Shown: positions 11,346-42,164 of the stretch, one piece after another | Position numbering within the stretch: position 1 is the stretch's first letter | Layout of the letters: each line of letters opens with the position of its first letter | Source of the DNA: an uncultured Pseudomonadota bacterium | GTDB taxonomy: Bacteria > Myxococcota_A > UBA796 > GCA-2862545 | Assembly (NCBI GenBank): GCA_913061235.1 | Contig: CAJXTB010000005.1 | Location: forward strand, 248,001 to 312,000 | Reading direction: 5' to 3' | DNA length: 64,000 bases | Made by a program: the position numbers and the translations under genes | Notes under the pieces: generated by a model | What the model was told of the DNA's origin: nothing | Databases searched by the model: none | Seen by the model: the letters and a program-made list of their open reading frames with translations, nothing else

Positions 11346-12197
11346 TTACGGGCGATTCGATTGGCGTCGCTCACTGGCGACGAGGGTGTTGCGCATCAGC
11401 ATGGCGATGGTCATGGGACCGACGCCACCTGGGACGGGAGTAATGGCGCTAGCGACCTGTGCGACCGCGTCAGTGTCGACGTCTCCGCACAGGGAGCCAT
11501 CAGCGAGGCGGTTGATGCCGACGTCGATCACAACGGCACCGGGGCGAACCCAGTCGGCACCGACCATCTTCGGGCGTCCAACAGCGGCAATGAGCACATC
11601 TGCTTCGCGTGTGATGCGTTCCGGGTGCTTTGTACGGCTGTGGCAGACAGTGACCGTTGCATTGGCCTGTTCAAGCAGTCTAGCGATGGGCCGCCCCACA
11701 ATATTGCTGCGACCGAGAACAACAGCGTGTGCTCCCGATAGGTCAACGCCAGTCGCCTCAATGAGGTGCATGCAGCCTGCTGGAGTACACGGGACGAGGA
11801 GCGGGCGGCCGATAGCGAGCAGACCGGCGCTCGCTGGCGTCAGGCCGTCCACGTCTTTGTCTGGATGAATGCTCTCTAGGACAGCGTCTGAGTCCAAGTG
11901 GCTTGGCAGTGGCAGCTGTACCAGAATGCCGTCCACAGACGGATCTGCATTCAGGGTATCGATGACCGCATGCAGCTCGTCTTGTGTGGTCGCTGCCGGC
12001 AGGGTCAGCTGTTGGTGCTGAAAGCCAAGCCGTCCAGCAACAATGCCCTTGCGACGTACATACACTTCAGACGCAGGGTCTTCACCCACAAGCACAACAG
12101 CCAGACCTGGCGGACGCGTCAACGATAGGGCGCGCTCGCGAGTGGCTCGATTGAGCCCCTTCGCGACCTGACGACCATCGATGCGTACGGCACTCAC
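11346..12197 (-). CDS. folD: Bifunctional methylene-THF dehydrogenase / methenyl-THF cyclohydrolase
   Basis: Interconverts 5,10-methylene-, methenyl- and 10-formyl-THF. It is 283 residues. The catalytic lysine motif Y-V-R-R-K is present (S-E-V-Y-V-R-R-K), followed by D-G-I-L-V-Q-L-P-L-P, D-K-D-V-D-G-L and the NAD(P)-binding V-V-L-G-R-S-N-I-V-G-R-P. The C-terminal P-V-P-G-G-V-G-P-M-T signature is intact. The GTG start overlaps the stop of the zinc-ribbon gene (GTGA), so fmdB-like gene, folD and gcvT form one transcription unit. Confidence 0.96.
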   Translation of the reverse strand: MSAVRIDGRQVAKGLNRATRERALSLTRPPGLAVVLVGEDPASEVYVRRKGIVAGRLGFQHQQLTLPAATTQDELHAVIDTLNADPSVDGILVQLPLPSHLDSDAVLESIHPDKDVDGLTPASAGLLAIGRPLLVPCTPAGCMHLIEATGVDLSGAHAVVLGRSNIVGRPIARLLEQANATVTVCHSRTKHPERITREADVLIAAVGRPKMVGADWVRPGAVVIDVGINRLADGSLCGDVDTDAVAQVASAITPVPGGVGPMTIAMLMRNTLVASERRQSNRP

Positions 12198-12427
12198 GAC
12201 TCACTACCGCCGCTGCTCTTCGGAGGGGTCGTCGTGGAAGAGGAGCCTGGCTTGCTGTAGCCGTCCTTGTACCACCCCCCGCCTTTCAGCGAAAAGGCAG
12301 CAGCACTGACCTGCTTCTTGACCTCAGTAGCGCCACACTCTGGGCACTCTGGCTTGGGGTCCGACATGCGCATCAGCTTCTCAAATCTGCTTGAGCAGGA
12401 CTCGCAGACGTATTCGTACAGTGGCAC
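12194..12427 (-). CDS. FmdB-family zinc-ribbon protein
   Basis: A 77-residue protein starting at a GTG with GGGAGG four bases upstream. It reads PLYEYVCESC then C-P-E-C-G-A: two CxxC pairs forming a zinc ribbon, the hallmark of the FmdB/CxxC regulatory family. After the ribbon, K-K-Q-V-S-A-A-A-F-S-L-K-G-G-G-W-Y is the usual C-terminal family motif, then a Ser/Thr/Pro tail. The function is unknown; regulation of formamidase genes was proposed for the founding member. It is first in the operon with folD and gcvT. Confidence 0.88.
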   Translation of the reverse strand: MPLYEYVCESCSSRFEKLMRMSDPKPECPECGATEVKKQVSAAAFSLKGGGWYKDGYSKPGSSSTTTPPKSSGGSES

Positions 12428-12488
12428 GGCGCCTCCCTTGGTTGAGAGCCGATATAGGTGCGCGCACGACCCCTGGCAAGACGCCAGA

Positions 12489-13343
12489 TTGTCCTTTGCC
12501 GAGCCCCCCATCGAGCTAACCGCCCCGCTGCTGATTCTCCCCCTAGGACTCCTCATTTGGGGATGTATACCTGCGCTTGCTGGTGTTGCCGTACAAGCAT
12601 CTGACACCGGAGAACACTTCCAGCTAGCACGCAAGACTATTGCGGTTGTTGCGCGCGAAGGCGCGGTTCGCAGCTTGGTACGCCTGCTCAAACCCTTCGG
12701 TCGAGATGGTGACCCGGTCCGTACGGAAGTGTCAGAGGTGAGAAGCGGGGCACTACCGGTGCTACTGATCCCCTCACCTCCGGCGAACCGCGCGGCAATG
12801 ACCTTCCTGGCTACGTTTTTGACGCATCGCGGACTGCCTTGGGTTCACAGCGTCAACGTCAGCAAGGGCACCACGCTCGACGCTCAGGCGACTGACCTTG
12901 CCGAAAAGGCTGCGAAATTGGCCAAAGCCGCCGGGGTCGACAAGATCGACGTCGTCGCCCACGGGATCTCCGGCCTGGCCGCCGCGTGGTGGATTCGGCA
13001 CCTCGGCGGAGACGCTCACGTTCGCCGCCTCATCACGATTGGTACACCATGGTCCGGTACCCGTATGGCTGTCTTTCAGCGCGGCACCCTGGCGCGAACT
13101 CTGCTGCCAGGCGCCGCTATTCTCGACGACCTCGTGCCCAAGAACGTTCCGACCATCGCCATCGGCTCTCCGACAGACCCATTTGTCGTCCCTTCAGCCA
13201 GCGCCCACCCTGAAGGTGCCGTAGCTGTGGTGCTGGATGGCGCAGGGCACACGGATCTTCTCATCTCAGCGCGCGCCTTCCGAGCCGTCTTCACTGCATT
13301 GTCTGAACCCATGGGCGACAGCTCACCCGCGGAGGTCTCGTGA
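12489..13343 (+). CDS. Membrane-anchored lipase-fold protein with missing nucleophile Ser
   Basis: About 284 residues, with an N-terminal membrane helix (about residues 10-35) and an alpha/beta-hydrolase domain. The nucleophile-elbow region reads V-V-A-H-G-I-S-G-L-A-A-A-W-W-I, followed by R-R-L-I-T-I-G-T-P-W-S-G-T. Against the usual lipase G-H-S-M-G-G-L motif, Gly159 replaces the catalytic Ser. The acid (S-P-T-D-P, D230) and His (G-A-G-H-T-D, H254) are retained. The start is uncertain: the frame is open upstream across the fmdB antisense, and the TTG at 12489 is my estimate because the membrane helix follows. The stop overlaps the start of arsA1 (GTGA), so translation is coupled to the two ATPase genes. 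Confidence 0.72.
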   Translation: MSFAEPPIELTAPLLILPLGLLIWGCIPALAGVAVQASDTGEHFQLARKTIAVVAREGAVRSLVRLLKPFGRDGDPVRTEVSEVRSGALPVLLIPSPPANRAAMTFLATFLTHRGLPWVHSVNVSKGTTLDAQATDLAEKAAKLAKAAGVDKIDVVAHGISGLAAAWWIRHLGGDAHVRRLITIGTPWSGTRMAVFQRGTLARTLLPGAAILDDLVPKNVPTIAIGSPTDPFVVPSASAHPEGAVAVVLDGAGHTDLLISARAFRAVFTALSEPMGDSSPAEVS

Positions 13344-14272
13344 CCGTCGGAGTCAACAAGCGCCTGCTCGTGGTCACTGGAAAGGGTGGCGTAGGCCGTT
13401 CCGTCGTGACCGCTGCTCTAGGCGTCGCGTCTGCCAATGCCGGTCGGACAACCACAACTGTCGAGTTCGATGGTCTGTCTTCTTTGGCCCAGCTGCACGG
13501 ACTGAGCGGACGCCAGTTCGACCCCCGAACAGTCACCCCAAAGCTGGACACCATGTCGCTGACGGTGATGGAGTGCTTGGGTGATTTCGGACGCCGCGTT
13601 CTGAAGATTGGCGCCTTAGTGCGTGTGGTCTTTCAAAACCGCATTGTTCGCGCACTCGTCGACGGGGTTCCAGGAATCCACGACCTGCTTCAGCTCGGCA
13701 AGCTGCGTAATCTGATCGCGGAGCCGCTCCCGCGAGACCGAAAATACGACCTTGCCATCTTGGATGCGCCTGCCACTGGACACGGGCTGACCCTGCTCGA
13801 TTCAGGCCTGACCATGGCCGAGCTGACCCGGGTCGGCCCGCTGCATGAAGAAGCCAACCAGATCGAAGCATGGCTCGGAAACAGCGAGCTGACAGGCATC
13901 GTCATCGTCACCCTCGCGGAGCGACTTCCAGTGCAAGAGGCCTTGGAGATGCTCGACAACTTGGGCGCCAAACGAACCCAAGTCGTCGCCGTCGTGCTCA
14001 ATCAGACCCAGCTCACCACGGAAGATGTCGCGGTGACCGAAGCCTTGCACGCCGCAGTCCGCGGTGCTGGTCGAGAGGACTTGGCGCTGTTGCTCGACCG
14101 AGAGCGGGCGGTGGCCAACCGGCAGGCACAGGCGGCGGCTGTCCTTCGTGACGGGCTCGAGGAGCGTGGCTTGACCCACATCGACCTCATCATCCTTCCC
14201 AAGCTTCGGACCACGGTAGACCGGAGCGGAATCGACACTCTCGCCGCGCACATGGAGGTCTTCAGTGGCTAA
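13340..14272 (+). CDS. ArsA/Get3-family ATPase, subunit 1 (P-loop Lys replaced by Arg)
   Basis: A 310-residue soluble ATPase of the ArsA/Get3 branch of the SIMIBI P-loop NTPases. The deviant Walker A reads G-K-G-G-V-G-R-S (residues 14-21). The signature Lys15 that acts across the dimer is kept, but the P-loop Lys is Arg20. Switch motifs follow (A-I-L-D-A-P-A-T-G-H). GTG start, coupled to the lipase-like gene upstream. It overlaps the second ATPase gene by 8 bases. Known bacterial two-gene ArsA systems, such as mycobacterial Rv3679/Rv3680, act as heterodimers; I infer the same here. No arsenical pump (arsB) is nearby, so arsenite export is unlikely. Confidence 0.87.
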   Translation: MTVGVNKRLLVVTGKGGVGRSVVTAALGVASANAGRTTTTVEFDGLSSLAQLHGLSGRQFDPRTVTPKLDTMSLTVMECLGDFGRRVLKIGALVRVVFQNRIVRALVDGVPGIHDLLQLGKLRNLIAEPLPRDRKYDLAILDAPATGHGLTLLDSGLTMAELTRVGPLHEEANQIEAWLGNSELTGIVIVTLAERLPVQEALEMLDNLGAKRTQVVAVVLNQTQLTTEDVAVTEALHAAVRGAGREDLALLLDRERAVANRQAQAAAVLRDGLEERGLTHIDLIILPKLRTTVDRSGIDTLAAHMEVFSG

Positions 14273-15320
14273 GGCAATCCACATCTGTTGTGGTGTTGGT
14301 GGAGTGGGCAAGACCACTGCCGCAGCGGCACTCGCTGTTGGACTCGCACGCCAGGGAAAGCGCGTGGCGGTCATGACAATCGATCCAGCTAGGCGCCTCG
14401 CCGACGCTCTAGGGGTGGAACTTAGCAACGACCCACAGCCCGTTCGCGGCGTCGATGGCCTGTGGGCGCTGATGCTGGACCGAAAGCAGACCTTTGACCA
14501 GGTTGTGCGACGCTACGCGCCAGACGGTGACACCGGCGACCGCCTCATTGCCAATCGCTACTACAACGCAGTCAGTACACGCCTCTCTGGTAGTCAAGAG
14601 TACATGGCCATGGAGAAGCTGCTGGCCCTCGACGAAGACCCGCGCTTCGACACCATTGTTGTGGACACGCCCCCAACCCGCCACGCCCTCGACTTCCTGC
14701 GAGCACCCGAGCGCGTGCGCAGTGTCCTCGACAAGCGAGTCCTGGGTGCTGTCGTCAACCCCACCGGTGGCGGCCTGTTTTCACGTGCCAGCAAGCGTGT
14801 CCTGGGCGTGGTCTACAAGATGGCCGGCGACTCGGTTCTCTCGGACCTTCAGGAGTTCTTCGGACTTCTCGGTGGCCTGTCGCAAGGGTTCCGCGACCGG
14901 GGCGCCAAGGTTCGCAGCCTGCTCGAACACGCCGAGACCTTGTACTGGCTTGTGCTCGGGGCCAACGACCCGGGTCGAGATGACGCGTTTGAGTTCTTGG
15001 ACACACTCAAGGCCGAGAAGCTGCACATAGGCGGCATCTTGGTGAACCGAGTAACGCCCACGCCCAATCCGGACGCTGTTCCCGATCTACCAAAGCCAGA
15101 CGGCATTGATGCCAGTCTGTGGTCTGAACGACTCACGGCACTGCGGACCCGTCACCAGGAAACGGTCACCCTCGCCAAGACCCAAGAACTGGCGCTGTCG
15201 GAGGTCAACCTACGTAGTGGGCCAGCACCAATGCTTCACATTGCCGATCGGTCCGAAGGGGTGCAAGACCTCAGCGACCTGGCCGAGATTGGCGACGCGA
15301 TTGTGGCGTCGATTCGGTAG
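14265..15320 (+). CDS. ArsA/Get3-family ATPase, subunit 2 (signature Lys replaced by Val)
   Basis: A 351-residue partner of the preceding gene. Its Walker A reads C-G-V-G-G-V-G-K-T-T (residues 9-18). The P-loop Lys16 and Thr17 are canonical, but the signature lysine of the GKGG motif is Val11. Switch I (D-P-A-R-R-L-A-D-A-L) and switch II (V-V-D-T-P-P-T-R-H) are intact. The middle of the protein (residues about 160-215) is hydrophobic and Gly-rich, as in the client-binding region of Get3. GTG start inside the end of arsA1 (8-base overlap). A composite ATP site using Lys16 of this subunit and Lys15 of subunit 1 is the natural inference. Confidence 0.9.
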   Translation: MAKAIHICCGVGGVGKTTAAAALAVGLARQGKRVAVMTIDPARRLADALGVELSNDPQPVRGVDGLWALMLDRKQTFDQVVRRYAPDGDTGDRLIANRYYNAVSTRLSGSQEYMAMEKLLALDEDPRFDTIVVDTPPTRHALDFLRAPERVRSVLDKRVLGAVVNPTGGGLFSRASKRVLGVVYKMAGDSVLSDLQEFFGLLGGLSQGFRDRGAKVRSLLEHAETLYWLVLGANDPGRDDAFEFLDTLKAEKLHIGGILVNRVTPTPNPDAVPDLPKPDGIDASLWSERLTALRTRHQETVTLAKTQELALSEVNLRSGPAPMLHIADRSEGVQDLSDLAEIGDAIVASIR

Positions 15321-15581: not shown

Positions 15582-16508
15582 TTATTCGAAGCGGACTTCG
15601 CTCATGCACAGGTCGTTGTACTCACGACCTGCAGTGACGCCGGTCAACGTCATGGTCACCGAGCTCGCTGCGCGTGGCGCGAACTCTGCGGTCTGCGGCA
15701 TGATGGTGGGCTTGACCTGGATGGTCTCCGTCGAACCGTCGGAGAAGGTCAAGGTCGCAGCGTTGCCGCGGTTGGCTGCCATCCACAGACGGAGGCTGGA
15801 GCCGATGCCGTTGATCATGTGGACCTTGGAGAGCGTTGGATTGCCCGCAAAGGTGAACTCGAGGGTCTCTCCTGTGCCGTCGCCATCTGTTCCTTCACAC
15901 CACATGGTGTCGGTGATGCCGTCTTGCACGTTGGCGGTCTCGTAGTTGCCGTCGCCGTCTGCGGGCAGCATGGAGCTAGCGGTGATGGCGCTTGCGGGCT
16001 TCTCGGTGCCTGCGGTTGCGTCGAAGACTTGAACCTCAGAGATTCCAGTGTCGAGCCAGGTTGTTCCGTTGTGAACCGACTTCACCCGAACTTCGACAGT
16101 GGTCGTCGTGACTGCTGCGGGAAGCGCGAACTCTTGCGCGACCATCTCGTCCGACATCACAAATGCCTGCGAGGTGCCGTCTGAGAAGCGGAACTCGATG
16201 TCTTTCGGCCGATTCGCACGGGTCCAGTACTCGTGGGAGTTCCACATGCCGCCCCAGACCTTGACCTTCTGAACAGACGTCTCTGCAGGAAGGGTCACAC
16301 GAACCCAGCTGCCAAGACCGGAGCCATCTGCGCCTTCGACCCAAGAGGTAGAGACCTTTCCATCCATCACGTGGCTGGCTTCGTAGGTCTCGTTGCCTTC
16401 TGGCGGGTAGGTCGTGCTCGCCTCGGCGCTTGCAGCGTCCAGTCGGCTGGCGCTGGCGCTGGCCATGGTGAGTACGGAGCAGGCCAGAACGGTCAGGCTG
16501 GTCTTCAT
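15582..16508 (-). CDS. Secreted protein with two discoidin-like (F5/8C-type) beta-sandwich domains
   Basis: A 308-residue protein with a cleavable signal peptide (M-K-T-S-L-T-V-L-A-C-S-V-L-T-M-A-S-A-S-A). Two tandem domains follow (about 30-165 and 170-308). Each has the pattern of a substitution-rich sandwich that binds glycans: an A-x-x-x-D-G-x-x-x-x-x-W motif (V-M-D-G-K-V-S-T-S-W and V-Q-D-G-I-T-D-T-M-W), a later I-x-x-x-F-S-D-G-T/S and a terminal I/M-S-E-V-x-V/F. This pattern is seen in F5/8 type C and NADase-type glycan-binding domains. ATG start with AGGGGA upstream. Probably exported to the periplasm or surface; the ligand is unknown. Confidence 0.7.
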   Translation of the reverse strand: MKTSLTVLACSVLTMASASASRLDAASAEASTTYPPEGNETYEASHVMDGKVSTSWVEGADGSGLGSWVRVTLPAETSVQKVKVWGGMWNSHEYWTRANRPKDIEFRFSDGTSQAFVMSDEMVAQEFALPAAVTTTTVEVRVKSVHNGTTWLDTGISEVQVFDATAGTEKPASAITASSMLPADGDGNYETANVQDGITDTMWCEGTDGDGTGETLEFTFAGNPTLSKVHMINGIGSSLRLWMAANRGNAATLTFSDGSTETIQVKPTIMPQTAEFAPRAASSVTMTLTGVTAGREYNDLCMSEVRFE

Positions 16509-16640: not shown

Positions 16641-18362
16641 CTAGAAGCTACCGACAGCTGCAGCACGAATGCCGCTGAAGCCCGGAAGGACACGACACTG
16701 GCCGCCAGCGCAGCGCAGTCCCTCCTTCTGCGAGCCACCGAACAGCTTGAGCGTCAAAGCATCAGACGGTTTGACCTGAACTTCAAGCGCACCGTACAGA
16801 GCTTCGCTGATGTTGCCCTTGCTGCTGACCAGTGGATTGTTGGTGAAGTCGGTGTACCAGATGATGGCCCAATCGGACCCGTGAAGTGCAGAGATAGAGC
16901 TTGTGAACTCCACATAGTCTTCTTGCTGAAGCGGATTTACGCCCCATCGGAACCACTCACCTTGCCCGGCTACATCGAGGTGTAGATGCTTTCCGATCGG
17001 GAACTTAATGTCGAGGTCCGTGTAAAGCTGACGGTCGGTTCCGGAATCGTTCCCGTCGCGAATGTCGCTGCGGTAGCCGACGTTGACAATGGCTGCGGTC
17101 TCCCCAGGAAACCACTCAATGCCGACAAACGGATGCACGATGGTCTCGGGCACCGTGTTGAAGTGCAACGGGCCGGTGTCCCAGTCGCGAAAGATGCCCA
17201 AAGACGCATATGGAGTCAGTCTTCCAGGATCTGCAGCCCAGTCTACCCTCAAGCGCCCACCCGCGATGTCGTCGCTGTTGACGGCACCTGAGCTGTCTTC
17301 GGTGATGGCCAGGTCGTACTCAAGCGTGGGTGCAATCGCGAGCTCGTATTGCTCATCACCGAGCGGACCGTTGACCGTCTCAGTGTTTAGGTAGCGCTTG
17401 CCTTCAAACTGCCAGGTGGTCGGCCCCACGTACGCCGTGGCTGAAGCGTATGCGGCGTAGCCCCAGTCATCTCCGTTGGGAGTGATGAGATCGCCTGCGC
17501 CGTAGTAAAAGGCATCGGCCTCGGCCAGCCAGTCAATGCCGCCCACGCCGTACAGCTCAGTCGACGCGCCAGCCACAACGGCGTCAGGACCACCAAGCTG
17601 GGAGAAGGACGGCCCAAAGCCTGTGTCTTGCACGTAGTCAACCATCACAGCGTGCGCGCCTACAGCGGCAGGACCGAGACCATAGCGATCAGCACGTACG
17701 CCAGCGACTAAGTGTCGACGGTCACCCATGATGTCCAGGTTTGGGTTGTCTTGGAAGACCTGCTGGCGATTCAGCTGCCCAACGAGAGCCACGACATCCC
17801 ACAGATCCGACGAGTAGGTCACGCGTGCACCCTGGATGGACGAGTCGATGTCCACCTGGGGATTACGGTTGACCGACAACGCAACGCCATTTCCAAACGT
17901 TGCGTAGAAGTCGCCCAGCGTGACCTCAACATTGCCACCATCAAAGCTGGCCGACAGCTTCTCGGGGTTGATGTACAAGAAGTTCGGCAGCGGTGTGTAC
18001 GCGGAGGGACCGACCAATTCGCGTTCGTTGACCAGCTCACCGTCTAGGCGGTAGCGGTTGGCGAACAACGCGACCTGATCAATCTGTGCCCAGGCAGACC
18101 ATTTCCCCTTCCCAATGCTGATATTGGTCCGGTTCACCTGCTCCATGTAGTTGAAGACAGCCCGGTCGGGAAAGCTCGGAACGCGCTGGTCGCGGACCCA
18201 ATAGCGGAACTCAAAGTCGTTCGTCACAGCAACGCTGACGCCGTTTCCAGAAGACTCTTGCGGTGACGCCGTGGCCGCCACGACCGGCTCATCGACTGGT
18301 TGAGCGACGCCCACCACAGGGTCTGCGGCCAACGCCGACGCAACTAGCAACCAAATGACCAC
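16641..18362 (-). CDS. Outer-membrane beta-barrel protein (DUF6029-like)
   Basis: A 573-residue exported protein with a signal peptide (V-V-I-W-L-L-V-A-S-A-L-A-A). The body alternates short beta-strands with polar turns and ends in Phe (A-A-A-V-G-S-F), as outer-membrane barrels do. The C-terminal pattern with two cysteines (G-L-R-C-A-G-G-Q-C-R-V-L-P-G-F-S-G-I) recalls the DUF6029 family. GTG start with GGAGG close upstream. It lies 53 bp downstream of a TlpA-like thioredoxin on the same strand, which suggests the pair cooperate in folding or reduction of the Cys pair. The transported or bound substrate is unknown. Confidence 0.72.
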   Translation of the reverse strand: MVIWLLVASALAADPVVGVAQPVDEPVVAATASPQESSGNGVSVAVTNDFEFRYWVRDQRVPSFPDRAVFNYMEQVNRTNISIGKGKWSAWAQIDQVALFANRYRLDGELVNERELVGPSAYTPLPNFLYINPEKLSASFDGGNVEVTLGDFYATFGNGVALSVNRNPQVDIDSSIQGARVTYSSDLWDVVALVGQLNRQQVFQDNPNLDIMGDRRHLVAGVRADRYGLGPAAVGAHAVMVDYVQDTGFGPSFSQLGGPDAVVAGASTELYGVGGIDWLAEADAFYYGAGDLITPNGDDWGYAAYASATAYVGPTTWQFEGKRYLNTETVNGPLGDEQYELAIAPTLEYDLAITEDSSGAVNSDDIAGGRLRVDWAADPGRLTPYASLGIFRDWDTGPLHFNTVPETIVHPFVGIEWFPGETAAIVNVGYRSDIRDGNDSGTDRQLYTDLDIKFPIGKHLHLDVAGQGEWFRWGVNPLQQEDYVEFTSSISALHGSDWAIIWYTDFTNNPLVSSKGNISEALYGALEVQVKPSDALTLKLFGGSQKEGLRCAGGQCRVLPGFSGIRAAAVGSF

Positions 18363-38312: not shown

Positions 38313-41300
38313 CTACAGGACCTCACGGGGGCGGGCGCCGTCGGCAGGACCGATCACGCCAGAAGCCTCCATGTAATCAATGATTCGAGCGGCGCGGTTG
38401 TACCCAATCTTGAGGTGACGCTGCACCATAGACGTCGATGCTTTGTCGGCATTGATGACGATTTGCACAGCCTGGTCGTACAACTCGTCCTTCTCGTCCT
38501 CATCGACACCATTAGCGTTCTTACTCTCGTCCGTGATGTCGCCAATGTAGTCGGGCTCATCCTGCGCTCGCAGGAAGTCAGTGACGCGAGCCACTTCTTC
38601 GTCAGACACAAAAGCACCATGACAGCGCACGAGGTTTCCGGTTCCTGGTGGCAAGTACAGCATGTCACCACGACCGAGTAGGGCTTCGGCGCCGGCAGCG
38701 TCCAAGACCGTACGCGAGTCAATGCGGGTACGTAGCTGGAAGCTGATCCGAGTCGGAAGGTTGGCCTTGATCAGACCGGTGACAACATCCACCGACGGCC
38801 GCTGGGTGGCTACGATGAGGTGAATGCCGCAGGCACGCGCCTTTTGAGCGATTCGTGCGATGGACTCTTCCACTTCCTTACTGGCGACCATCATCAGGTC
38901 CGCGAGCTCGTCGATGACAATGACAATGTACGGCATGTGCTTCGGAGGCTCGGGGAGTCCGTCGCACTCCATCCAGTCCTTTGGTGCGTACTTGCGAGCA
39001 CGTTCCGCGTTCCATGACTCGATTTCTTTCTCGCGCTTCTTGTTGAAGCTGACAATGTTTCGCGTGCCCCATCGCGCAAGAATCTCGTAGCGATTGTCCA
39101 TCTCGCGACACGCCCAGGCCAGCGCCGTTGCTGCACGCTTCGGGTCTGTGACGACGGGATGAAGCAGATGCGGAATGCCTTCATACATCTCGAATTCAAG
39201 CATCTTCGGGTCGATGAGAAGCATGCGCAGGTCATCAGGCGATGACGTGTACAGCATGCTCATCAGCATGCCGTTGACCCCAACCGACTTACCCGCACCG
39301 GTTGTTCCACCGATGAGCAAGTGAGGCATCTTGGCCAAGTCACCAATGACTGGCTTGCCGCCAACGTCCTTGCCTAGAATGCATGGCAACGCTGCGTGGC
39401 ACTCCTTGAATGCAGGACTGGCGAGCACTTCCCGAAGGTAGATGGTCAGGCGCTTCGCGCTCGGAATCTCGATGCCCACACAGCCCTTTCCGGGGATGGG
39501 CGCAACAATGCGAACCCTGACGGCGCGCAGCGCCATGGCCAAGTCGTCGGACAACCCGGCGATGCGGGACACCTTGATGCCAGGTGCTGGCTCGAATTCA
39601 AAGATGGTTACGACTGGACCTGGTCGAACGGCAGTGACCTCACCACCAATCTTGAAGCTCAACAGCTTCTCTTCAACAGTCGCCGCCATCTCACGCAGCT
39701 CTTCTTCGTCGATTCCAGTGTCCTGATACGGGACTTCATCGAGCAGGCGCAGCGTGGGTAGGTGGAAGCTCTTCTTCTCCTCTACGACCGCCTCACCGTT
39801 GTCTTCGACCTTCTGGTCGTCCAAGTACGCTGCACGATGAACCGTGATTCCAGCGCCACGAATGCTCGCAGTTGTCGGGCGTGGAACATCGCCCATCGCC
39901 GGGACCGCGGCACCGATTGGTGCTGGAACGGGGGCGACAGGTGCTGTCGAGGCGGCGACAGGTTCAGGATGTGAAGGGACGAATGCTGCTGGCGGCGTGA
40001 CGCGTGGAGCGGGCACGACGACCGGCGGCGGCACTGTGGCCGCAGCGACGGGTGGCGTAGCAGGTGGTGCGACGGCAGCGACTACTGGAGCCACAGAGGC
40101 CGCTACTGGTGCGATGGGCGCGACGGGCGCGACGGGCGCGACGGGCGCGGCAACTGGAGGTGCTGCTGATGCGATGGGCGTGGCAACTGGAGGTACAGGG
40201 GGCGCTACTGATGCGACGGGCGCGGCAACTGGAGATGCAGGCGGGGCTACCGATGCGACGGGCGCGGCAACTGGAGGTGCAGGCGGGGCTACCGATGCGA
40301 CGGGCGCGGCAACTGGAGATGCAGGCGGGGCTACCGATGCGACGGGTGCGGCAACTGGAGATGCAGGCGGGGCTACCGATGCGACGGGTACTGATTCAGG
40401 GACCGCAAGCGAAGCGACAGGCGCGGCTACTGGAACCGAAGGGGCTGTAGCTGGAGAGACGGGCGCGGCCACTGGAGCCGTGACCGCCACGGGCGCTGTT
40501 GAAGCGCTGGTAACCTTCGGCACCACGACTACGGGAGCCGAAGGGGCCACGGCGACAGGTGCAGGTGCAACCACGACCGAGCGTGCAACCGCAGGCGAGA
40601 TGGCCGGCGTCGCTGGTGCCTGTGGGGTTGCTGGCGAGGCTACTGGGAGAACAGCGGACACCGGGGGTGAAACGACAGGCGCAGCCGTAACTATGGGCTG
40701 CGGCGTCACTTTCTGAGTCGAGACAGGCTGTGAGTAATGAGAGTCACCACGCTCGAGCTGCACGCGTCGTGACGCGGCATGCACGGCCGGCGTTGCCGTC
40801 GCTGGAGCCGCTACTACTGGACGCTGGGCAGTCTGTATTGGGGTCGCCCGTGCTGACGGCACAGCATGCCCAACTACAGATGGAGACTGCACTGACACAC
40901 TGGGTGTCGCCAACGAAACCGAGGGCGGTATGTGGATCACAAGGGAAGAGGCGGCCCTTGCATTGGGCTGAACCTGCTCTGTTGTTGCACCCACTTCCGG
41001 CATGACCACGGATGGTTCAGACGCGTTTACAGCCTTTGCCTCGGGCATACTCGACACCGAAGCAACCGGCTTCGACCGACGACGAGGCTTCGGCCTCACG
41101 GCTTGGCGAGCGTTGCGCTCATCGAAGGATGGGAACATGTCCAGCAGGTCACTCCCCTCACCCATGGGCTCGGGTGCAGCGTGCACTGCGGGCTGCTGAG
41201 GACCAGCCACAATACGACGTGGTGCTGGAGCACCGACCGCCACAGCGCTTGGACGCTGCCGAGGTCGAGTCTCGCGAATGATGGTCTCCGCCTCTCCATC

Positions 41301-42164
41301 TACACTCGTCGCGTGGACGGCCTCGAAAGGACGGTAACCAAGGTTCGGATCAATCCCGTCTGCTTCTCCACCAAATGTGCTGGGGTCGAAAGTGTCTTCT
41401 ACCTCTTCGACTTCCCACTCACCGGCGTCTCCACCACGGACCGAGTCCCACATACGAGCCAAGGTACGCCCGACACTGCGGCTCCCGGCAACAATCGCGG
41501 CCCACGATGCCGACGCTGTGCCCTTGGCAGCCCGAGCGCCGAACTGGCCTGCACCCGAGACCGCGCGACTTCCGGCATCGCGGACGACCGGGCCACGGGC
41601 TTCCACGCCTTCAACAAGCGCAGCTGCAACGCCCCGCCATCGAACACGGAACAATGCGGTACCACCGAGTACAAGCACGCCAAATAAGAGGAACAGCGCC
41701 CCCCAATAGCCAGCGACACCCTGGATACCCCCACCGAAGGTGGAACCAAGTGCTCCGCCTGCGGGGTAGCCAGCGATCTCACCCAACACAACATGCATGA
41801 GCCCGAGCACGGCGCTGTAAGTGATGAGCGCACCCAGCCAACGGCGCCAGTCAGCCACAGTTCTGCCAGCGAGCCGAACCATCGTCACGCTCAAAAGCAA
41901 GACGATTCCCCAGGCGCCAAGTCCAAAGCCGGCACGTAGGATGTGGGCCACATGTGCCCCCAACGTTCCGCAGGGATTGGTCACACGTCCAGAGCCCGTC
42001 TGAAAGACGGTAGGGTCGTGGGCGTCCGCACCAGCCAAACTGACAAGGGCAAACGTGAGAACAAGCGACACTCCTAAAAGCGCGAGCTCGGAGCGGCGTT
42101 CACCGACAATCGAGTTCAAGCGAGTGGCGACAGCGGACGTAGTAGTAGTGACTGAGGTACTCAT
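38313..42164 (-). CDS. ftsK: DNA translocase FtsK/SpoIIIE with long Pro/Ala/Val linker
   Basis: 1283 residues. The N-terminal domain has four membrane helices (about residues 20-170). A long low-complexity linker rich in Pro, Ala and Val spans about 330-770 and includes a run of 14-residue repeats (P-V-A-A-P-V-A-S-V-A-P-P-A-S). The RecA-like motor has Walker A G-G-T-T-G-A-G-K-S-V near residue 955 and Walker B I-V-I-V-I-D-E-L-A-D-L. The C-terminal gamma winged helix is present (M-V-Q-R-H-L-K-I-G-Y-N-R-A-A-R-I-I-D). It pumps DNA and aids dif resolution at the septum. ATG at 42164. The upstream region contains a candidate structured RNA leader. Confidence 0.97.
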   Translation of the reverse strand: MSTSVTTTTSAVATRLNSIVGERRSELALLGVSLVLTFALVSLAGADAHDPTVFQTGSGRVTNPCGTLGAHVAHILRAGFGLGAWGIVLLLSVTMVRLAGRTVADWRRWLGALITYSAVLGLMHVVLGEIAGYPAGGALGSTFGGGIQGVAGYWGALFLLFGVLVLGGTALFRVRWRGVAAALVEGVEARGPVVRDAGSRAVSGAGQFGARAAKGTASASWAAIVAGSRSVGRTLARMWDSVRGGDAGEWEVEEVEDTFDPSTFGGEADGIDPNLGYRPFEAVHATSVDGEAETIIRETRPRQRPSAVAVGAPAPRRIVAGPQQPAVHAAPEPMGEGSDLLDMFPSFDERNARQAVRPKPRRRSKPVASVSSMPEAKAVNASEPSVVMPEVGATTEQVQPNARAASSLVIHIPPSVSLATPSVSVQSPSVVGHAVPSARATPIQTAQRPVVAAPATATPAVHAASRRVQLERGDSHYSQPVSTQKVTPQPIVTAAPVVSPPVSAVLPVASPATPQAPATPAISPAVARSVVVAPAPVAVAPSAPVVVVPKVTSASTAPVAVTAPVAAPVSPATAPSVPVAAPVASLAVPESVPVASVAPPASPVAAPVASVAPPASPVAAPVASVAPPAPPVAAPVASVAPPASPVAAPVASVAPPVPPVATPIASAAPPVAAPVAPVAPVAPIAPVAASVAPVVAAVAPPATPPVAAATVPPPVVVPAPRVTPPAAFVPSHPEPVAASTAPVAPVPAPIGAAVPAMGDVPRPTTASIRGAGITVHRAAYLDDQKVEDNGEAVVEEKKSFHLPTLRLLDEVPYQDTGIDEEELREMAATVEEKLLSFKIGGEVTAVRPGPVVTIFEFEPAPGIKVSRIAGLSDDLAMALRAVRVRIVAPIPGKGCVGIEIPSAKRLTIYLREVLASPAFKECHAALPCILGKDVGGKPVIGDLAKMPHLLIGGTTGAGKSVGVNGMLMSMLYTSSPDDLRMLLIDPKMLEFEMYEGIPHLLHPVVTDPKRAATALAWACREMDNRYEILARWGTRNIVSFNKKREKEIESWNAERARKYAPKDWMECDGLPEPPKHMPYIVIVIDELADLMMVASKEVEESIARIAQKARACGIHLIVATQRPSVDVVTGLIKANLPTRISFQLRTRIDSRTVLDAAGAEALLGRGDMLYLPPGTGNLVRCHGAFVSDEEVARVTDFLRAQDEPDYIGDITDESKNANGVDEDEKDELYDQAVQIVINADKASTSMVQRHLKIGYNRAARIIDYMEASGVIGPADGARPREVL
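40182..40391. repeat. Tandem 42-bp repeats inside ftsK
   Basis: Five near-identical 42-bp units, preceded by a shorter related 33-bp unit and 9-bp GCGACGGGC repeats at about 40115-40145. They encode the 14-residue repeats in the FtsK linker. All are in frame, so copy-number change would alter linker length without a frameshift. Confidence 0.85.

Follow-up and report, generated by a model that had tools for sequence, protein, structure and literature searches.

A membrane lipase-fold protein encoded with a BagAB-type pair of Get3-like ATPases: subunit asymmetry and repeated loss of the lipase serine

The operon described here lies within a 64,000-nucleotide stretch of DNA (hereafter the window) and consists of three genes, referred to as LIP, ArsA1 and ArsA2, which are arranged head to tail on the plus strand with overlaps of 4 and 8 bases. 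The genes and their surroundings are as follows:

11346-12197, minus strand: folD; a syntenic landmark in 47 related loci
12194-12430, minus strand: FmdB-like zinc-ribbon gene; a syntenic landmark by the operon in 50 related loci
12431-12488: gap of 58 bases between the divergent zinc-ribbon and LIP genes; presumed promoter region
12489-13343, plus strand: LIP, membrane lipase-fold protein of 284 aa; TTG start, uncertain
13340-14272, plus strand: ArsA1, BagA-type Get3-like ATPase of 310 aa; GTG start; deviant Walker A GKGGVGRS
14265-15320, plus strand: ArsA2, BagB-type Get3-like ATPase of 351 aa; GTG start; GVGGVGKT
15582-16508, minus strand: F5/8-type gene, encoding an NADase-translocation F5/8 type C domain (PF25302) and a second F5/8 domain; downstream of the operon
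16641-18362, minus strand: gene of a DUF6029 protein; downstream of the operon

Both GTG starts are preceded by GGAGG motifs; no consensus promoter was found in the 58-base gap upstream of LIP. The setting of the operon is conserved across families: folD and the zinc-ribbon gene are found upstream in divergent orientation, and downstream the F5/8-type gene is syntenic in 22 related loci and the DUF6029 gene in 17. Together with gcvT, these four make up the identified neighbours. The original prediction, made from the sequence of the window, had described three coupled genes with the motifs AHGISG in LIP, GKGGVGRS in ArsA1 and GVGGVGKT in ArsA2, as well as retention of the Asp and His of the lipase triad, and all of this is confirmed by the sequence.

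The NCBIfam models scoring best against ArsA1 and ArsA2 are those of BagA and BagB, respectively (NF053622 and NF053621), ahead of the ArsA and Get3 models. The closest solved structures, by sequence, are the two chains of the corresponding mycobacterial complex, 6bs3_A for ArsA1 and 6bs3_B for ArsA2 (E 5e-54), and Foldseek likewise ranks 6bs3_A first for the predicted ArsA1 model (pLDDT 93); a structural comparison of the two gives a Z of 29.1 and an rmsd of 3.6 over 301 aligned residues. Kinship of the pair to BagA/BagB is, on these comparisons, almost certain; because the scores (104 bits for ArsA1, 252 bits for ArsA2) are below the curated equivalog cut-offs of 400 and 521, the two proteins are to be filed by sequence as relatives, not equivalogs, of the mycobacterial proteins. 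In Mycobacterium tuberculosis, BagA-BagB (Rv3679-Rv3680; PDB 6bs3-6bs5) is a Get3-like heterodimer which has the same fold as the window's pair and is encoded, like it, by adjacent genes in the same order. Mycobacterial BagB also lacks the signature Lys (CCGAGGVGKT), as does ArsA2, whereas mycobacterial BagA has a full GKGGTGKS in place of the GKGGVGRS of ArsA1; further, the mycobacterial BagAB loci examined contain no LIP match, unlike the operon of the window.

Since both ArsA1 and ArsA2 also score above the Pfam ArsA_ATPase cut-off, they might be taken for the ATPase of an ArsA-type arsenite or anion pump. However, the ArsA models are outscored by those of BagA and BagB, neither sequence has the metal-site Cys pattern (ArsA1 has one Cys, ArsA2 two adjacent ones at the P-loop), and no gene of the arsB type is among the identified neighbours. 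A pump function is extremely improbable, which agrees with the earlier view that arsenite export does not explain the operon. Another close system is Get3/TRC40, which targets tail-anchored proteins and shares with ArsA1 the deviant Walker A and the fold (Z 25–27 to Get3 structures). There, the homodimer has both Lys, while in the window's pair it takes both subunits to make up a full Walker A; the CxxC zinc motif of the Get3/TRC40 dimer interface is absent from the ArsA1 and ArsA2 sequences; and Get3/TRC40 operates with Get1/Get2, whereas the operon partner in the window is a lipase-fold protein. Among the Get3d proteins found in cyanobacteria and plants (NosGet3d, PDB 3igf), some have a P-loop Arg and are still ATPases, but Get3d carries a C-terminal alpha-crystallin domain (PMC10248533 for both points) and, unlike ArsA1-ArsA2, is not encoded as an A-B pair.

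BagAB-type pairs are present in many bacterial phyla, with the A gene preceding the B gene in the taxonomic order of the window's organism as well as in other phyla. Within the order, BagB-type matches were found in 62 of 63 genomes, most of which have two copies; the analysis of the first pair comprised the sequences of 55 ArsA1, 57 ArsA2 and 35 LIP, one of the last belonging to an outgroup family. A wider set beyond the order, from many other phyla, contained 79 ArsA1-type proteins and 76 ArsA2-type neighbours. ArsA1 sequences from the genome-contig scan were excluded as evidence on the signature Lys, as the search pattern itself required that residue.

In ArsA2 (motif CCGVGGVGKTTA) the P-loop Lys and the switch-I DPA are kept and the signature Lys is missing. 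The same holds throughout the order, where the signature Lys occurs in 0/57 ArsA2 and the P-loop Lys and switch-I Asp in 57/57 each; in the wider set, a signature Lys is found in 1/76 and the switch-I Asp in 76/76. The ArsA2 of one locus (L159), scored there with Arg, reflects a split reading frame, the Lys P-loop sitting in another frame. On these counts, the defect of ArsA2 is ancient and shared by BagB-type proteins at large. Both Lys together (GKGGVGKT) were seen in a single BagB-type protein, from a planctomycete record (L179:4744-6201).

ArsA1 (motif VTGKGGVGRSVV) shows the reverse, with the signature Lys kept and the P-loop Lys replaced by Arg. While the signature Lys is found in all 55 ArsA1 of the order, the P-loop position is occupied by Lys in 40 and by Arg in 15; all the Arg are in the window's own family (15/17, the position being either Lys or Arg in every one of the 17). 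Lack of the P-loop Lys, as claimed for ArsA1 originally, is therefore true of the window and of most of its family but not of the rest of the order, which has Lys in 38/38; in the wider set, Arg occurs in 4/79. The replacement in ArsA1 is encoded by CGT and common to 14 related genomes, and that in LIP (see below) by GGG; because of these codons and of the shared Arg, neither change is a simple single-base error. On the tree, the Lys-to-Arg replacement is derived, with 3 state changes. The switch-I acidic residue is missing in 52/55 ArsA1 of the order, the window's ArsA1 being one of the three with it (Asp); because Glu or Asp is mostly kept at this position in the wider set, its loss is a trait of the window's order, not of BagA-type proteins generally. 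Matched, complementary P-loop defects, as had been proposed, are thus not what was found: the defect of ArsA2 is general, while the Arg of ArsA1 is derived, present in most of one family and sporadic elsewhere, and it is seen from the sequences as a later, recurrent step, taken in the subunit whose own site lies opposite an ArsA2 lacking the signature Lys. In two other families (f15 and f11; L072:5346-8965 and L066:5416-9427), a solitary ArsA1-type protein with GKGGVGRS is encoded, no ArsA2 match adjoining; there, the gene is followed by two genes resembling paired M16 zinc proteases (HLLEHL, read by eye).

Judged from the sequences compared, asymmetry as such is common to BagAB-type pairs in general. 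The signature Lys is known to work across the dimer (PMC10248533), and by homology to the solved 6bs3 we infer that a heterodimer is formed in the window's organism as well. ArsA1 and ArsA2 would then assemble into a Get3-like heterodimer that hydrolyses ATP at one site only, in which ATP is held by the P-loop of ArsA2, the switch-I Asp is contributed by ArsA2 and the signature Lys is provided by ArsA1 across the interface. A single composite ATP site, as originally predicted, fits both the asymmetric conservation and the homology to the BagA-BagB heterodimer, and we consider it quite likely. The second site, on ArsA1, has opposite it a subunit that lacks the signature Lys; for this reason it would probably bind nucleotide with slow hydrolysis or none and be retained for a structural or regulatory purpose. 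Its reduced role may have made the P-loop Lys replaceable by Arg.

It is also conceivable that both sites hydrolyse ATP, the replacement of Lys being simply tolerated in a normal two-site ATPase. NosGet3d, which has Arg at the P-loop position, hydrolyses ATP with a kcat of 0.28 per min, compared to 1.10 for plant Get3d and 2.7 per min for yeast Get3 (PMC10248533), and by analogy ArsA1 with its Arg may still do so, the window's ArsA1 moreover having Asp at the switch-I position. The restriction to Lys or Arg in the family suggests that the pocket is still under selection, and no relaxed evolution of ArsA1 was seen after the replacement, the mean difference between ArsA1 and ArsA2 identity being -0.03 in the window's family and -0.03 in family f4. 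Lys-to-Arg is a conservative change, and ArsA1 may still be able to bind ATP without its P-loop Lys. Given these three points, the absence of other residues, the unaccelerated divergence and the active NosGet3d, the ArsA1 site should, on its sequence, be regarded as a retained nucleotide site whose catalytic power is doubtful rather than as a dead one. Nevertheless, it faces an ArsA2 without the signature Lys in 57/57 cases and mostly has no switch-I acidic residue of its own, which argues against two hydrolytic sites; we regard such an enzyme as unlikely.

LIP is predicted (pLDDT 91) to consist of a single long N-terminal transmembrane helix (residues 8–40), a linker helix (48–71) and an alpha/beta-hydrolase domain. 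Its core resembles that of Bacillus subtilis LipA (Z ~22) and of the marine Streptomyces lipase MAJ1 (7v3k; Z 24.1), and the same fold is found in the membrane phospholipase A 6i8w, also a membrane protein. From LipA-like lipases and 6i8w it differs in having Gly for the catalytic Ser, in its extra linker helix with an Arg-Glu pair, and in being encoded with BagAB. The Gly of the nucleophile motif (VVAHGISGLA) falls exactly on the nucleophile position in an alignment of all 35 LIP; Asp (SPTDPFVVP) and His (GAGHTDLL) are kept, so that in the window the Ser-Asp-His triad is incomplete within a modelled lipase fold. Across the LIP set, Asp is kept in 34/35 and His in 33/34. The R56-E57 pair of the linker helix, which is outside the catalytic machinery, ranks with the best conserved residues of LIP, ahead of the catalytic Ser, and is invariant in the aligned subset.

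The catalytic Ser itself is kept in 26/34 copies of the order, namely in all 18 from other families and in 8/16 from the window's own. In the eight others it is replaced by Gly (6), Asp (1) or Ala (1), and the LIP tree, the distant outgroup LIP included, calls for a minimum of five changes between Ser and another state. The original prediction had named an intact lipase Ser in relatives as grounds for its refutation, and this is what most copies show; the notion of a dead lipase, which may apply to the window, thus describes a lineage trait and not the protein at large. In one close pair of Ser-less loci (L041/L042), the only one for which it was calculated, dN/dS is 0.05 for LIP, 0.09 for ArsA1 and 0.08 for ArsA2; with this low value, LIP is there under purifying selection and not decaying, which points to a non-catalytic role. 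Coupling of the Ser loss to the Lys-to-Arg change in ArsA1 was considered and rejected: L044 has no Ser but retains the Lys, and Ser is combined with Arg in eight genomes of the family. LIP probably descends from an active serine hydrolase; catalysis would have been lost in the window's species and several relatives, and the protein retained as a binding or docking partner. Docking of the ATPases to the membrane via LIP is a tentative proposal, to which we give somewhat less than even odds; both the contact and any cargo are inferred.

The gene order is conserved, since LIP lies directly upstream of ArsA1 in all 32 loci in which the contig continues (the window included), spread over four families within the order plus one outgroup family; three further LIP sit at contig ends and are not among the 32. 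Families f3, f4 and f6 have the ATPase pair but no LIP, as do two genomes of the window's family (L045, L046), and wherever LIP was seen at this locus the pair was present too. LIP thus behaves, as far as gene content tells, as an accessory of the ATPases that is not essential to them. Since a strongly diverged LIP is found at the same place in an outgroup genome (L063, family f7), LIP probably predates the order and has since disappeared on several occasions.

Two other explanations of LIP need to be considered alongside an accessory role. It could be a mere passenger, sharing the operon with BagAB but linked to it neither physically nor functionally, as the pairs without LIP would allow; indeed, a common operon alone is no proof of contact. 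In families f2 and f5, the ATPases also diverge more slowly than LIP, and the window's genome encodes a second BagAB-type pair (contig C9, L059:4713-6781, minus strand; GKGGTGKT and GSGGVGKT) with no LIP match beside it. However, the unbroken adjacency to the 5′ side of ArsA1, the overlap of the genes in the window, the invariance of R56-E57 in the aligned subset and, in the single pair tested, the purifying selection on a Ser-less LIP are not expected of a passenger, which makes this explanation rather unlikely. Alternatively, LIP may still be an enzyme in the window's species, using another nucleophile. Retention of both Asp and His in all eight Ser-less copies would be in keeping with this, but the residue that takes the place of Ser varies, and the Gly of the oxyanion loop is gone too in several of these copies (PSPP in the window, PDPT in L041, AEPG in L087); activity of this sort is very unlikely. 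We therefore favour, with a probability of roughly 0.6, a BagAB-type module in which the one-site heterodimer has LIP as an accessory membrane partner.

What is new here is an asymmetric ATPase of the BagAB type that comes with a conserved lipase-fold partner at the membrane, the Ser of which was lost in several lineages, the window's among them; no published lipase-ArsA operon was found in a literature search. To our knowledge, there is no agreed cargo for BagAB-type pairs, and a conserved membrane partner provides a tangible clue to their site of action. That the Ser of LIP was lost repeatedly while the remainder of the protein was retained amounts to a natural experiment in which catalysis proved dispensable and something else did not, and from the strict asymmetry between the subunits one expects a single hydrolytic site, which is directly testable. 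A function in lipid or membrane-protein targeting is hypothetical. That the module would be a counterpart of the GET system, with the membrane-anchored and repeatedly catalysis-stripped lipase as receptor for a single-site BagAB delivering hydrophobic protein or lipid-linked cargo, is a speculative extension and distinctly unlikely. In M. tuberculosis, BagAB has been linked to tolerance of glycerol and nitric oxide, according to work cited in PMC10597346.

Elsewhere in the window, which is part of a genome of 7.2 Mb, a 42-base repeat is present in about five copies at 40168-40388, inside a long reading frame on the minus strand (38313-42164).
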